IMG/VR virus record: IMGVR_UViG_3300046007_004315
Location: 1 to 33,400 of that record
Source of the DNA: a virus
Length of the DNA: 33,400 bases
Direction: 5' to 3' (one strand)
Positions 396-33,400 of this stretch are shown one piece after another; position 1 is the first letter of the stretch, and every line of letters begins with the position of its first letter. The notes beneath the pieces were generated by a model, which saw only the letters and a program-made list of their open reading frames with translations, was not told the DNA's origin and did no database searches. Position numbers and translations under genes: made by a program.

Positions 396-484
396 GTCAA
401 GTTATATCAATAGCCCCTTTAATTCCGAATAGTGATTACTTAATTGCTATAACTTGACAGTTTGGAATTCTAAGGGGCTTTTTT
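396..484 (+). ncRNA. Pseudoknotted terminator leader, element 1
   Basis: Four segments pair in interlocked order. Segment B, 396-406, is perfectly complementary to B', 448-458 (11 bp). Segment C, 412-426, pairs with C', 464-479 (8 bp plus 6 bp around a 1x2 internal loop), and C' runs into six Ts at 479-484. The order B-C-B'-C' is that of an H-type pseudoknot superimposed on an intrinsic terminator. B' can alternatively fold into a small hairpin, AACT-TGAC-AGTT (451-462), whose TGAC loop is complementary to the GTCA at the RNA 5' end. The copy at 27860-27760 on the minus strand has the same pieces with compensating changes. The Rha start codon lies 14 bases after the T run, so the RNA would attenuate rha or be released as a small RNA. 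The role is inferred. Confidence 0.75.
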
Positions 485-7669: not shown

Positions 7670-8067
7670 TTTCCCAATTCATTTGACGCTTGCAACACTT
7701 GCATTCTTGCGTGGACGTTGCGTGCCATTAACCGTGTTACGTTTTCTTTATTGAACGGCTCAGCTAAACCACTCCACCCGATAACACGAACCACTGCGCT
7801 TTCAATAATATATTCGTCATCTTCTTCTGCGGTACGCACTTTTTCTTTACCTGTTACGCTTTTTTGCGTGGCTTGAGTGCGAATTCTGTTGGCTTGTCGA
7901 TTTGTCCACTCTTGAACTTTCTCGCTTTCACTGCCCAAAACTTGCAAAGTCAATGCGGTTTTAACGCCTTTTGTGTTCAAAACTTCCAAATCAAACGGTG
8001 TATCGCTTGCTGTTGATAAGTCGAAATCGTCAAGTGATAATAATTTTGTTTCTGTTGCTTTTGTCAT
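7654..8067 (-). CDS. Tail assembly chaperone, G-type (137 aa)
   Basis: By position and size this is the lambda gpG equivalent: 137 residues, between the tail tube and tape measure genes, ending 20 bases after a frameshift site. The sequence begins with TKATETKLLSLDDFDLSTA and contains a charged middle region (SVTGKEKVRTAEEDDEYII) and a WSGLAEPFNKENVTRLM segment, which fits small phage tail chaperones. Its product should be made in excess over the frameshifted fusion. The ATG at 8067 is preceded by GGTAAATACC, with only a weak ribosome binding site. A terminator lies between it and the tail tube gene, so its transcript level is probably lower than that of the tube. Confidence 0.8.
   Translation of the reverse strand: MTKATETKLLSLDDFDLSTASDTPFDLEVLNTKGVKTALTLQVLGSESEKVQEWTNRQANRIRTQATQKSVTGKEKVRTAEEDDEYIIESAVVRVIGWSGLAEPFNKENVTRLMARNVHARMQVLQASNELGNYSKD
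7669..7675 (-). other. Programmed -1 ribosomal frameshift site GGGAAAC
   Basis: Read 5'->3' on the minus strand the heptamer is G GGA AAC in the G-gene frame, the XXXYYYZ form needed for two tRNAs to slip back onto GGG AAA. Lambda uses the very similar GGGAAAG at the same place. The frame entered after slipping is the one that stays open to the tape measure start. Confidence 0.88.
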
Positions 8068-8090
8068 GGTATTTACCTGTCGTTAAATTA

Positions 8091-11221: not shown

Positions 11222-11315
11222 AATAAAATCAATAAGTTATGATTTTAAAAAGGTTGGTTGGATATAAAACCAACCAATCCAACCAATCCAACCATAATAA
11301 AATCAATAACTTATT
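11222..11315. repeat. Nested inverted repeat with GGTTGG arms
   Basis: An outer pair, AATAAGTTAT (11231-11240) with ATAACTTATT (11306-11315), encloses an inner pair of GGTTGGTTGG (11252-11261) with several CCAACC units (11270-11294). A 14-base direct repeat AATAAAATCAATAA lies at 11222-11235 and 11296-11309. Read on the minus strand, the inner arm and loop contain GGTTGGTTTTATAT, which also occurs on the plus strand at 27993-28006 next to the primase gene. No gene is seen in this gap. Confidence 0.7.
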
Positions 11316-12270: not shown

Positions 12271-12276
12271 TATAAT
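12271..12276 (+). promoter_or_regulatory. Plus-strand promoter of RNA element 2
   Basis: A perfect TATAAT, divergent from the minus-strand box 12 bases away. The two boxes and their flanks form an imperfect palindrome (ATTATAGC ... GGTTATAAT). No TGn extension or clear -35 box is present. A start near G12283 is expected. Confidence 0.6.
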
Positions 12277-12282
12277 AGCTGT

Positions 12283-12384
12283 GAGTTTTTTAGATTTGTG
12301 CGGACGAGGCATGACAATCTAAAGAATTTATTCTTAACCCTGTTTAATAATGCACTCGTCCTGTATTGTTAGCAGGGTTTTTTA
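12283..12384 (+). ncRNA. Pseudoknotted terminator leader, element 2
   Basis: Hairpin A pairs 12289-12299 with 12314-12323 (10 bp, one bulge); its loop holds GGACGAG (12302-12308). The terminator stem C pairs 12336-12344 with 12371-12379 and is followed by Ts. Inside the terminator loop, a second hairpin, AATGCA with TGTATT (12349-12354 with 12362-12367, one G-U), presents CTCGTCC (12355-12361) as its exact seven-base loop, fully complementary to the loop of hairpin A. This is a kissing-loop arrangement in the order A-B-A'-C-B'-C'. A GGAG ribosome binding site follows the T run, then the 23-codon leader peptide. Confidence 0.75.
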
Positions 12385-12397
12385 TTGGAGTTAAAAA

Positions 12398-12469
12398 ATG
12401 AACAAAGACTACACCAGAGCAACTGACGATTTCCTTGCTAAGTTCGAGCGCGTGGGAGGTGAGCGATGA
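12398..12469 (+). CDS. Leader peptide (23 aa)
   Basis: ATG at 12398, six bases after a GGAG ribosome binding site, opens a 23-codon frame: MNKDYTRATDDFLAKFERV and then GGER. Its TGA overlaps the ATG of the next gene (ATGA), and the strong GGGAGGTGAG site of that gene lies within the last codons. The peptide has no recognisable domain. It may couple translation of the downstream gene to readthrough of RNA element 2. Confidence 0.6.
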   Translation: MNKDYTRATDDFLAKFERVGGER

Positions 12470-12729
12470 ACGATTACACACCTTCGCCTTGGTCAGTTTT
12501 GCACTCAAAAACATTTAACAAAGTTTCATCGTTTGATGTTAAGCAAAATGATATTAGCGAGGCTGAATGGAATTTAAAGCTAATCGCCGCCGCACCTGAT
12601 TTGCTTGAGGCTTTGATTGATGTTTTAGATGCTTTTGAGCGTCACACGGCTGGTCATTCAAGAGGTTATGAATTGAATACCGTTATCTGCGAACAAGCCA
12701 AAAATGCAATCGCAAAAGCTACACAATAG
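12466..12729 (+). CDS. Ea-like small phage protein (87 aa)
   Basis: The pattern YTPSPW near the N terminus followed by NLKLIAAAPDLLEALIDVL (about 43-61) and a closing AKNAIAKAT is shared by many small proteins of lambdoid and related phages, often in accessory regions. Their function is unknown. It is a plus-strand gene within the minus-strand late cluster, between the cement gene and the small head genes, with its own promoter, RNA leader and terminator: a typical moron layout. The ribosome binding site GGGAGGTGAG is among the strongest in the window. Confidence 0.82.
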   Translation: MNDYTPSPWSVLHSKTFNKVSSFDVKQNDISEAEWNLKLIAAAPDLLEALIDVLDAFERHTAGHSRGYELNTVICEQAKNAIAKATQ

Positions 12730-13221: not shown

Positions 13222-14163
13222 TTACGCTACGATAGCTGAATTTGCGATTGAACCCAAACGAGTTACAGCGCGTCCGTTGAACACAGCTAATCCGTTATAC
13301 CATTCAATGCGAGTTCTGAAAACTGGTGCAGTTGGTAATTCGCCTAAATCACGAACGTCAATTGTACCGTTTTGCAGACCTGTTAAAGCGTCAGCACCCA
13401 TCGAAACGATGTAAATTGATGCACCTGTTGCAGTACCGCCCCACGCGCTTGATGTGTAGCTAACTTCGTTAAATCCTAAGATAGCCGTGCCAGTGTTGTC
13501 TAAATCAACAGTGACAATTGGAATGCCATTATAAGACATGACACGCTGACCAAATTGCCCAATGTCATAGCTGATATAACCTGCAATTGTGTATGTACGA
13601 GCAGCAGCCGCGAATTTACGCGCCATTGCTTTTGACATAATCAAATGCGTTGGGTTTAATGTTTGGTCAATTGCTTCATCAAGTTTAGCCAATGATAAAG
13701 CCGTACCGCCGTCAGTTGTACCAGCCGCAATCTTTTGGTCACCAACTACACGAACCTGCAAACCATCAAATTCGCGTGGGTCAGATTGATTATCGCCTTT
13801 AATAAATTTCTTTGTCCACGCTAATGATAATGCGCGGATTTTCATTTGTTCATGAACGGTGCGTTGTTGCACGCCCATCGTATCGACAATGAATTTATCA
13901 ACGTCTAAATCACCACCAGCAATAACAAGCGATTCGGTTAGCGGATTCAATACACCAGTTGAAGCTGTGTAAGTTTCATTGACACCACGAAAACCAACAT
14001 TAGGCAATGATTCTTCACGGGTATACGACATCGCGTTGCCAGTGATATTTTGAAAGGGAAGGTTTGAAAGTATTTCGCTTGAGCCTGCATATAACTCAAT
14101 AACGCCGCTTTTATAAGCGTTACCTGTTTCGAGTTTTGCAGCTTCTAATAATGTTAAAGCCAT
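13222..14163 (-). CDS. Major capsid protein
   Basis: A 313-residue protein of the HK97-fold group, placed between a coiled-coil scaffold-like gene and a cement gene. Recognisable parts are the N-terminal ALTLLEAAKLETGNAYKSGV, the MSYTREESLPNVGFRGVNE segment (E-loop region), then DFDGL-type FDGLQVRV (about 131-138) and the LIMSKAMARKFAAAAR segment of the P/A domains, closing with FRTRIEWYNGLAVFNGRAV. No separate protease gene was seen, so proteolytic maturation may be absent or act in another way. It should be the most abundant head protein. Confidence 0.9.
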   Translation of the reverse strand: MALTLLEAAKLETGNAYKSGVIELYAGSSEILSNLPFQNITGNAMSYTREESLPNVGFRGVNETYTASTGVLNPLTESLVIAGGDLDVDKFIVDTMGVQQRTVHEQMKIRALSLAWTKKFIKGDNQSDPREFDGLQVRVVGDQKIAAGTTDGGTALSLAKLDEAIDQTLNPTHLIMSKAMARKFAAAARTYTIAGYISYDIGQFGQRVMSYNGIPIVTVDLDNTGTAILGFNEVSYTSSAWGGTATGASIYIVSMGADALTGLQNGTIDVRDLGELPTAPVFRTRIEWYNGLAVFNGRAVTRLGSIANSAIVA

Positions 14164-15001: not shown

Positions 15002-15010
15002 TGGTATAAT
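15002..15010 (+). promoter_or_regulatory. Extended -10 promoter of RNA element 3
   Basis: TGGTATAAT, the same extended box as at 382-389. It points away from the capsid promoter, and the two footprints overlap. Confidence 0.68.
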
Positions 15011-15013
15011 ATG

Positions 15014-15117
15014 CTTATCCGTAGTGGGATAAATAAGAATTTAAACAAAACCGTTTTTCATAAGTTCGTGGCTCAATTCTTAGCCTCCACTACCGAACCT
15101 TGAAAGCGGTTTTTTTT
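15014..15117 (+). ncRNA. Pseudoknotted terminator leader, element 3
   Basis: A short hairpin TTATCC/GGATAA (15015-15020 with 15027-15032) carries GTAGTGG (15021-15027), complementary to CCACTAC (15087-15093). TAAGAATT (15034-15041) is perfectly complementary to AATTCTTA (15075-15082). Both pairs enclose segment C (15047-15060), which pairs with C' (15101-15113, about 12 bp with one G-U and a bulge) to form a terminator followed by a T run. The order is again B-C-B'-C'. A competing local hairpin, GTTCG with CGAAC (15064-15068 with 15094-15098), exists inside the terminator loop, so at least two folds are possible. The downstream GAGTAAAA spacing to the ATG resembles element 1. Confidence 0.72.
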
Positions 15118-17027: not shown

Positions 17028-17666
17028 ATGAAAACAGAAGTAATTATGAAACGTGAGTTTTTTGGTGATTTTATTCAGCAACGCTCGCATAGTGAATTGT
17101 TTTGTGCAACTGACTTGTTGCGCGTCGAAAATGAAAAAAGAAAGCTGCAAGGAAAAAACCCAAAATTCATGCAATCATACTTCGACACGCAAGAAACAAA
17201 AGAGTTAATCAATCAAATCAAATGGGAGTTTAGCATACAAGACAGTCAGGTTAAAAGCGTAACAAAAGGTCGTCATGGTGGAACGTGGATGCACCCGATG
17301 TTATTTGTTGATTTTGCCATGTGGTTAAGCGTTGAAACAAAGGTGCGTGTTTTAAAGTGGGTTTTAGATGGTTTAATGGAATTGCGCGATAATAGTGGTG
17401 ATACATTTAAATCTATGAATGCCGCTTTGCTTGAAAATTACCCAAATCACGCTAACGCTACAAACTATATGCGGATTGCAAACGCAGTATCTAAAGCGTG
17501 TGGCGTATATGAATTAGGTGCTGATAAATGGCAACTAGCAACAAAGGAACAAATTGAAATGCGCGATAGAATCCAAAATAGAATCGTAACCTATGCAGAT
17601 GTTGTCGATAATATGGAAGATTGCATTAACCGCGCAATTCAAAAAGAGTTGAATGTAAAAATCTAA
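17028..17666 (+). CDS. KilA-N domain phage protein
   Basis: The KilA-N DNA-binding domain covers about residues 10-115, with the hallmark GRHGGTWMHPMLFVDFAMWL and FCATDLLRVENEKRK (the domain's early helix). KilA-N is found in phage antirepressors and in DNA-virus proteins; P1 KilA kills the host when overexpressed. The C-terminal part is helical (NYMRIANAVSKACGVYELG, ending RAIQKELNVKI). ATG 17028 is preferred over TTG 17019 because AAAGG lies at a suitable distance. The gene is antisense, inserted between the portal and MuF genes that are normally adjacent, with its own promoter and terminator. Confidence 0.88.
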   Translation: MKTEVIMKREFFGDFIQQRSHSELFCATDLLRVENEKRKLQGKNPKFMQSYFDTQETKELINQIKWEFSIQDSQVKSVTKGRHGGTWMHPMLFVDFAMWLSVETKVRVLKWVLDGLMELRDNSGDTFKSMNAALLENYPNHANATNYMRIANAVSKACGVYELGADKWQLATKEQIEMRDRIQNRIVTYADVVDNMEDCINRAIQKELNVKI

Positions 17667-27759: not shown

Positions 27760-27860
27760 TAAAAAAAGCCCCTTAATCGTTCCAACTTGTCAAAGTTTCA
27801 TAGCAATTTTTTAATTACCATGCTGGAACGATTAAAGGGCTATTGATATAAAACTTTGAC
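27760..27860 (-). ncRNA. Pseudoknotted terminator leader, element 4
   Basis: On the minus strand B (27860-27851, GTCAAAGTTT) is perfectly complementary to B' (27798-27789), and C (27841-27824) pairs with C' (27784-27767) over 18 bp with one G-U, followed by seven Ts. Order B-C-B'-C'. B' overlaps a hairpin AACTT-TGAC-AAGTT whose loop TGAC equals that of element 1, and the ATATCAATAGCCC block is shared with element 1. Stems differ from element 1 by paired changes, which supports base pairing. The RNA is expected to start exactly at G27860, seven bases after the -10 box. Confidence 0.78.
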
Positions 27861-27866
27861 GTGCAA

Positions 27867-27875
27867 ATTATAGCA
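27867..27875 (-). promoter_or_regulatory. Extended -10 promoter of RNA element 4
   Basis: The minus strand reads TGCTATAAT, with TATAAT at 27872-27867. It is the same box type and spacing to the RNA 5' end as at element 1. Confidence 0.68.
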
Positions 27876-27915: not shown

Positions 27916-28000
27916 GGTTGGTTGAGTGGGGTGTCTATAGACACACCCAACCCAACCAACCACCAACTTAACGCCGATTTGGTTGGTTGGTTGGTTGGTT
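27916..28000. repeat. GGTTGG-rich repeat and imperfect palindrome after the primase gene
   Basis: The plus strand has GGTTGG-rich arms around TGTCTATAGACA (27916-27961, imperfect palindrome of about 46 bases), then (GGTT)5 at 27981-28000, ending at the primase stop codon. The GG spacing could form a two-layer G-quadruplex. Related GGTTGG runs occur inside the primase gene near 28173-28213 and 28798-28821 and in the gap at 11252-11294. No gene is seen in 27876-28000. Confidence 0.65.
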
Positions 28001-32858: not shown

Positions 32859-32867
32859 TGTTATAAT
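32859..32867 (+). promoter_or_regulatory. Extended -10 promoter of RNA element 5
   Basis: TGTTATAAT, with TATAAT at 32862-32867 right after the exonuclease stop codon (32852-32854). No clear -35 is seen. A start near G32874 is expected. Confidence 0.65.
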
Positions 32868-32873
32868 TACGGC

Positions 32874-32977
32874 GTGTTTTTAGATTTAGCTCCTACCACA
32901 GCATTCAAATCTAAAAGCATAAACTTTTAACCCGTGTAATTTATCAGTGTGGTAGCTGATACGTTGCACGGGTTTTT
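32874..32977 (+). ncRNA. Pseudoknotted terminator leader, element 5
   Basis: Hairpin A: TTTTAGATTT (32878-32887) with AAATCTAAAA (32907-32916), 10 bp perfect. Its loop carries CTACCACA (32893-32900). Terminator stem C: AACCCGTGTAA (32929-32939) with TTGCACGGGTT (32964-32974), 11 bp with one G-U, then Ts. In the terminator loop, TATCAG with CTGATA (32942-32947 with 32956-32961) presents TGTGGTAG (32948-32955) as its eight-base loop, perfectly complementary to CTACCACA. The layout A-B-A'-C-B'-C' with two facing loops is identical to element 2 although loop and stem sequences differ. GAGG and the BRO-N ATG follow. Confidence 0.8.
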
Positions 32978-32993
32978 TATTTTGCGAGGTTTT

Positions 32994-33400
32994 ATGAAAG
33001 ATTTACAGTTATTTAATTTTCAAGGTTCAAACGAAATCCGTGTTGTTAATAGCGAAAACGGTGATATTTGGTTTGTGGCGAAAGATGTTTGTGTAATTTT
33101 GGAGATAAGCAATGTTAGTCAAGCATTGAGCCGATTAGATGATGATGAAAAGGGCATCATTAGTAATGATACCCTTGGAGGCGCGCAGGAAATGTCAATC
33201 ATCAATGAAAGTGGTTTATATTCTTTGGTGTTAACAAGTCGCAAACCAGAGGCAAAAGCATTTAAAAAATGGATTACAGCAGAAGTTTTGCCTTCAATTC
33301 GTAAAACTGGCAGTTATTCAGTTGAAGCAAAACCGCTTTCGCATCTTGAAATTTTGGCGCAATCCGCGTTAGCACTTGTTGAAATTGACGCTCGAACTAC
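32994..33400 (+). CDS. BRO-N family antirepressor-like protein (3' end cut by window)
   Basis: The ATG at 32994 has GAGG eight bases upstream and opens a frame running out of the window (135 codons visible). The BRO-N domain is clear: IWFVAKDVCVILEISNVSQA (about 22-41), LDDDEKGIISNDTLGGAQEM, SIINESGLYSLVLTSRKPEA and then FKKWITAEVLPSIRKTGSYS. BRO-N occurs in phage antirepressors (P22 Ant/Ant-like and others) and large DNA viruses. The C-terminal part begins with PLSHLEILAQSALAL, like the second domain of such antirepressors, but is incomplete here. It is led by RNA element 5. Confidence 0.9.
   Translation, partial: MKDLQLFNFQGSNEIRVVNSENGDIWFVAKDVCVILEISNVSQALSRLDDDEKGIISNDTLGGAQEMSIINESGLYSLVLTSRKPEAKAFKKWITAEVLPSIRKTGSYSVEAKPLSHLEILAQSALALVEIDART

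Follow-up and report, generated by a model that had tools for sequence, protein, structure and literature searches.

Natural variation among uncultured phages shows strong selection on an intrinsic terminator to keep its loop paired with the extreme 5' end of the transcript. This selection is seen across three architectures and ahead of many different genes; terminators are usually described through their stem and T-run alone. If the contact controls termination, it would constitute a compact, programmable, protein-free valve, and would suggest how phages give newly acquired genes ready-made expression control. The 33.4-kb stretch of DNA analysed here, referred to as the window, is a virus record from IMG/VR. 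It carries two elements of the first architecture (type I), in which a 5' hairpin (hairpin A) and the terminator hairpin each expose a loop:

12271-12276, plus strand: -10 box (TATAAT) of element 2, 6 nt upstream of the first paired base of hairpin A
12283-12329, plus strand: hairpin A of element 2 (18 bp in the MFE fold, with a 3-nt bulge on the 3' side, a 4-bp inner stem and a 7-nt loop)
12302-12308, plus strand: kissing loop GGACGAG of element 2, within hairpin A
12336-12383, plus strand: intrinsic terminator hairpin (~18 bp) and T-run of element 2, from sequence and MFE fold
12355-12361, plus strand: kissing loop CTCGTCC of element 2, at the tip of the terminator hairpin
32862-32867, plus strand: extended -10 box (TGT-TATAAT) of element 5
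32874-32920, plus strand: hairpin A of element 5, from sequence and MFE fold
32893-32900, plus strand: kissing sequence CTACCACA of element 5, with CTACCAC as its strict loop-loop portion
32929-32978, plus strand: intrinsic terminator hairpin and T-run of element 5, from sequence and MFE fold
32948-32955, plus strand: kissing loop TGTGGTAG of element 5, in the terminator hairpin

Unconstrained MFE folding of elements 2 and 5 gives a hairpin A of 17-18 bp, a terminator of 18 bp and loops of 6-8 nt. An earlier sequence-only reading had claimed that the element 2 loop CTCGTCC is exactly complementary to GGACGAG in hairpin A, and this holds at 7/7 positions, with both sequences presented as closed 7-nt loops in the unconstrained fold. 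Its claim of an eight-base complementarity in element 5 also holds, CTACCACA and TGTGGTAG being exactly complementary over 8; as a strict loop-loop match, however, the pairing is 7 bp (CTACCAC/GTGGTAG), because the last A of CTACCACA closes a 3-bp inner stem in the MFE fold. The statement that complementarity fills the loop end to end both times is thus correct for element 2, while the eighth pair of element 5 uses this inner-stem closing A. Under mononucleotide shuffling of the apical segment of hairpin A, element 2 would show its match by chance with a probability of 0.006 and element 5 with one of 0.0015, or about 1e-5 for both jointly.

Homologues were sought by pattern scans of viral contigs in which only the A-stem arms, or one A arm together with the CCCG and CGGG arms, were queried, and the loops were not. 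These loop-blind scans returned true homologues adjoining promoters and terminators. In an alignment of 15 distinct type I sequences (A1), all of the scorable cells of the kissing helix form standard pairs (103/103), and five of its seven pairs are altered on both sides. Pairing falls to 33-48% if the partner is slid by 1-3 columns, and stands at 71% if partners are shuffled. A covariance model built without the kissing pairs (R1) found two further, more diverged members, L333 and L334, both of which kiss through new loop sequences (CGACCAG/CTGGTCG and GAGCAG/CTGCTC, respectively). Complementarity is therefore retained in 17/17 complete homologues, the 15 of A1 plus these two, with ten different loop sequences and three loop sizes (loops of 6 and 7 nt that form 6 and 7 bp, respectively, and loops of 8 nt that form 7 bp); one contig that ends before hairpin A (L335) is not among the complete homologues. 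In a bias-free swap test, the longest strict match between a sequence's own partners is 6-11 bp, apart from a value of 3 in L169 that is due to one G-U, as compared with a mean of 4.2 for swapped partners. MFE folds without pseudoknots yield two hairpins with 6-8-nt loops in nearly all type I members, and the linker between hairpin A and the terminator is 5-10 nt long (15 in L157). Every homologue belongs to an uncultured metagenomic phage.

As the loops have been altered on both sides and yet the pairing has been kept, we conclude that this is a real RNA element, and that covariation shows the type I loop-loop pairing as well as both hairpins. The sequence-only reading had proposed a precise contact rather than a simple terminator, naming natural covariation between the loops as support and homologues with lost complementarity as evidence against; the former is observed, and none of the latter was found among the 17 complete type I homologues. 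Covariation cannot, however, separate pairing in cis from pairing in trans, and pairing within one molecule remains an inference.

It could be argued that the inverted repeats instead act at the DNA level, as operators for a phage repressor close to the start point, and that the RNA pairing is incidental. Consistent with this, the A-stem core TTTTTAGATTT is invariant across A1 and adjoins the -10 box. However, in L333 and L334 the A stem too has been replaced through compensating changes, and the loops covary across about 55-70 nt, which would be meaningless for an operator. We consider the operator explanation very unlikely.

A separate observation on the type I elements concerns a run of U directly 5' of the 5' arm of the terminator, seen in the window (12330-12337 and 32920-32930) and in most type I homologues. 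Ordinary terminators often carry A in this position. It is possible that the U run and the A/U-rich lower stem of hairpin A make a U-A-U triple helix.

Analogous contacts in other architectures, which had been missed by the sequence-only reading, occur in elements 1 and 3 and in a minus-strand element (27860-27761):

15005-15117, plus strand: element 3 (type II), from the -10 box to the terminator end, followed by a Rha gene (15132)
15015-15032 and 15047-15117, plus strand: hairpin and terminator, respectively, of element 3
15021-15027 with 15087-15093, plus strand: contact 1 of element 3, GTAGTGG with CCACTAC, hairpin loop to terminator-arm bulge
15035-15041 with 15075-15081, plus strand: contact 2 of element 3, AAGAATT with AATTCTT, free strand to terminator apical loop
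384-485, plus strand: element 1 (type III), with -10 box at 384-389 and terminator at 412-485, followed by a Rha gene (498)
396-406 with 448-458, plus strand: contact of element 1, GTCAAGTTATA with TATAACTTGAC, in the 3' bulge of the terminator
27761-27872, minus strand: type III element, with -10 box at 27872-27867 and terminator at 27841-27761
27860-27851 with 27798-27789, minus strand: contact of the minus-strand element, GTCAAAGTTT with AAACTTTGAC

Element 3 opens with a short hairpin; a free strand comes next, and after it a conserved linker (UUAAACAAAACCG). Both type II contacts are kept with altered letters in 8/8 distinct homologues, five of which came from a model without the contact pairs. 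All 112 cells of the contacts are paired (112/112) in a register chosen by eye, and in a swap test that does not depend on register, own partners form 11-15 paired bases, while swapped partners form at most 13 and mostly 8-11. In type III, 10-11 bases at the extreme 5' end pair with the 3' bulge of the terminator, and an insertion in one strand is matched by an insertion in its partner. Behind the minus-strand element comes a 117-aa ORF (27744), the first in a series of minus-strand genes among which are an endolysin-like gene, the terminase and the structural genes; by analogy, this leader would be placed like a late-operon valve.

Several further features of these regions can be noted. The A-rich type II linker UUAAACAAA is invariant in L346, L348, L349, L354, L347 and the window (15042-15053), where both adjoining contacts vary; it may lie docked in a groove of that stem of the terminator or serve as a protein-binding site, although both are no more than possibilities. 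AACC/GGTT repeats (CCAACCAACCAACC) lie in intergenic gaps of the window (11252-11288 and 27925-27998), one of them directly upstream of the minus-strand element. In two more distant phages, L291 (~7970-8080, plus strand) and L292 (~13820-13930, plus strand), leader-terminator pairs show 7-8-bp matches (TAGGACG/CGTCCTA and GGTGCAAC/GTTGCACC). These plausible cases may represent further architectures and were left out of the counts; an unrestricted detector of a hairpin plus a terminator returned many chance candidates among other phages.

The elements are also fixed in position. In nearly all elements of types I-III the -10 box lies 6 nt ahead of the first paired base, the exceptions being L163b, L333 and L334 (8-10 nt) and element 3 (4 nt); in L093a and the L068 group, the 6-nt figure refers to a weaker -10 hexamer that was picked by eye. 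From this spacing, the paired structure should start at the first transcribed base. The AUG is found 13-23 nt past the T-run in 27 of the 28 listed elements, some of which come from overlapping contigs. Sequence comparison thus establishes fixed spacing to the -10 box, the T-run and the AUG. The layout is that of an attenuator leader: a promoter, a leader, a GC-closed stem with a T-run, and then a ribosome-binding site and a gene.

The same arrangement could be read as a set of small-RNA genes, in which the product is a terminated RNA of ~100 nt, closed off by its 5' hairpin, its 3' terminator and the kiss. Its targets in trans would be other leaders, host RNAs or a protein, and the gene would merely ride along. 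In support of this, the RNA is compact from the inferred +1 through the T-run, and the paired loops vary freely while matching each other. Nevertheless, the regularity with which a reading frame follows the T-run is greater than a free-standing RNA gene needs, and we regard this explanation as unlikely.

The reading towards which we lean, in the absence of expression or probing data, is that the elements are promoter-coupled, pseudoknotted 5' leader attenuators that serve as interchangeable valves. RNA polymerase would start ~7 nt past the -10 box, as inferred from the spacing, and the first RNA made would fold as hairpin A in type I, provide a hairpin plus a free strand in type II, or remain a free strand in type III. 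The apical loop or bulge of the emerging terminator would then pair with this 5' structure, in type I as a 6-7-bp kissing complex. The predicted product is a compact pseudoknotted RNA of ~90-110 nt, with its T-run end right before the ribosome-binding site. By default a short terminated RNA would be made, and the downstream gene would be expressed only upon read-through by polymerase; relief of termination by a phage or host factor, or by infection stage, is inferred.

In none of the three types does the contact take up bases of the terminator stem; it is made through loop and bulge bases. This suggests a design in which contact and terminator exist together, the former setting the strength of the latter, and not a mutually exclusive antiterminator. 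Inspection of the folds, without a systematic search, revealed no alternative antiterminator helix overlapping the terminator stem. Together, these two observations favour a leader attenuator set by a tertiary contact. The sequence-only reading had given no role for the loop contact, and any role is inferred; this applies to the transcription start, working and regulated termination in the cell, cis pairing, the sign of the effect and the relieving factor. Sequence alone does not reveal whether the contact helps or hinders termination. A phage antitermination factor has not been identified, in the absence of a systematic search for one of Q type.

A simpler possibility is that each element is a constitutive terminator or insulator with leaky read-through, where the contact merely stabilises the RNA or speeds its folding and nothing is regulated. 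The lack of a noticed competing antiterminator pairing, and the compatibility of the contact with the terminator stem, are in its favour. However, it leaves unexplained both the succession of promoter and terminator ahead of the element's own gene and the conservation of the contact in three architectures, and we judge it unlikely.

The geometry of the attenuator bears on whether pairing occurs in cis. With a hairpin A of 17-18 bp, a kiss of 6-7 bp and a terminator of 15-18 bp, a stacked rod would by inference exceed 100 angstrom. The linker of 5-10 nt is too short for such a rod, so pairing in cis needs a sharp bend at the conserved 3-nt bulge of hairpin A or fraying at the weak base of A. 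That the contact draws hairpin A onto the terminator, as suggested earlier, would agree with the shortness of the linker and with the 3-nt bulge, but has not been shown. Given this tight geometry, trans pairing or partial opening of the stem is possible, and there may be room for mechanical competition between docking and completion of the terminator.

Trans pairing would imply that accumulated terminated leader binds the loops of the nascent leader and so feeds back on termination, in the manner of antisense RNAs of phages and plasmids such as the P1 C4 RNA, which acts on its antirepressor operon. Loops that match within one RNA would pair between two copies as well, the cis geometry is tight, and several of the downstream genes are of antirepressor type (Rha, Bro-N). 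Against this, there was no match in Rfam, which includes the C4 antisense RNA family (RF01695, listed in PMC2864571): the whole window gave none at gathering score, six type I loci gave no credible match with E <= 1, and the C4 covariance model matched neither the window at gathering score nor the six loci. The kissing sequences all differ within each genome, no more than by chance (P = 0.31), which therefore argues neither for nor against trans pairing; the idea that they have been selected to differ within a genome was rejected on the same value as not significant. Trans feedback seems to us an improbable account of the elements.

A bolder version of the attenuator reading is possible, in which the elements form a new class of RNA-only transcription valve, where a 5'-terminal hairpin would dock through kissing loops on the tip of the terminator and the strength of loop pairing would set read-through. 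Docking and terminator completion would oppose each other, because the 5-10-nt linker is too short for both 18-bp arms plus the kiss. If this is true, phages swap valves as ready-made cassettes, with at least three architectures built on one principle.

The element is apparently undescribed, and may be viewed as an attenuator-type leader with a new tertiary architecture. No description of it as a kissing or pseudoknotted phage terminator was found in the literature searched, most subscription papers being outside that search. Like the late-gene valve of lambda at pR'-tR' (6S RNA), it combines a promoter with an intrinsic terminator within ~100-200 nt, before a gene or operon, and one element here heads the run of lysis, packaging and structural genes. 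The lambda valve is not known to contain a kissing interaction or pseudoknot; in contrast to lambda, no Q-like factor is identified here, and many separate single-gene cassettes carry the valve. The C4 antisense RNA of P1/P7 controls an antirepressor operon; stretches of it that are left unpaired form base pairs with others close by in that operon. The shared features are a structured phage RNA that pairs locally and an association with antirepressor genes, but the target here is an intrinsic terminator loop, and most of the genes are not antirepressors. With 5'-leader attenuators and riboswitches the elements share the order of leader, terminator, ribosome-binding site and gene; neither a conserved ligand pocket nor an alternative antiterminator helix was noticed in them, and what is conserved is a tertiary contact made with the loop of the terminator. 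Fully complementary loops of 6-7 nt are also found in ColE1 RNAI/RNAII and HIV TAR/TAR*. TAR has a 3-nt bulge like that of hairpin A (~4-5 bp from the loop), but on the other strand, and here, unlike in the ColE1 and TAR complexes, both loops are in one transcript and one is a terminator loop. The put RNA of HK022 likewise forms two hairpins near the start of a phage transcript and influences termination; in the present elements, the second of the two hairpins is the terminator itself, with its T-run, and sequence and fold are not comparable.

The terminase of the window shares 57% identity with its counterparts in Plesiomonas phage phiP4-7 and in Kagunavirus-type Escherichia phages. In the cultured relatives phiP4-7 and hz69, comparable inserted genes stand behind plain promoters, with no pseudoknotted leader, and the element thus appears so far to be confined to uncultured phages. 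A DNA similarity search of cultured phages gave short chance matches only, and no such leader was noticed in 25 regions upstream of Bro-N protein relatives in other phages. Two matches in a genome collection were rejected as chance, neither having the kissing or the terminator, and thus no host was identified.

Most structural genes of the window are on the minus strand. The plus strand carries a few regulator-like genes (Rha at 498 and 15132, KilA-N at 17028 and Bro-N at 32994) and small reading frames. The KilA-N gene, the fourth plus-strand gene of this kind, has no such leader in the region inspected. The genes behind the two type I elements are:

32994-33400, plus strand: Bro-N domain gene behind element 5 (Pfam PF02498, 8.3e-27), truncated by the window end
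12398-12729, plus strand: reading frames behind element 2, a 23-aa ORF (12398) and an 87-aa ORF (12466)

Across the homologues, the genes that follow the leaders vary, and include Rha, Bro-N, an SNF2-like helicase, a probable TSCPD-type protein and small unknowns; gene names not backed by Pfam matches, such as SNF2-like and TSCPD-type, are what we take the sequences to be on reading them. L164 carries an identical copy of element 5 and of its upstream flank, but the gene there starts with a Rha-like and not a Bro-N domain, and the two genes have in common a C-terminal stretch starting KPLSHLEILAQSALALVEIDART. The element thus marks a border where one gene can replace another, and sequence comparison shows such exchange of downstream genes. 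Behind element 2, the 23-aa ORF (12398-12468, plus strand; MNKDYTRATDDFLAKFERVGGER) corresponds to the C-terminus of proteins of 274 and 288 aa encoded behind the homologous leaders L086 and L333, and is probably the remnant of a longer gene that shrank by deletion while the leader and start were kept.
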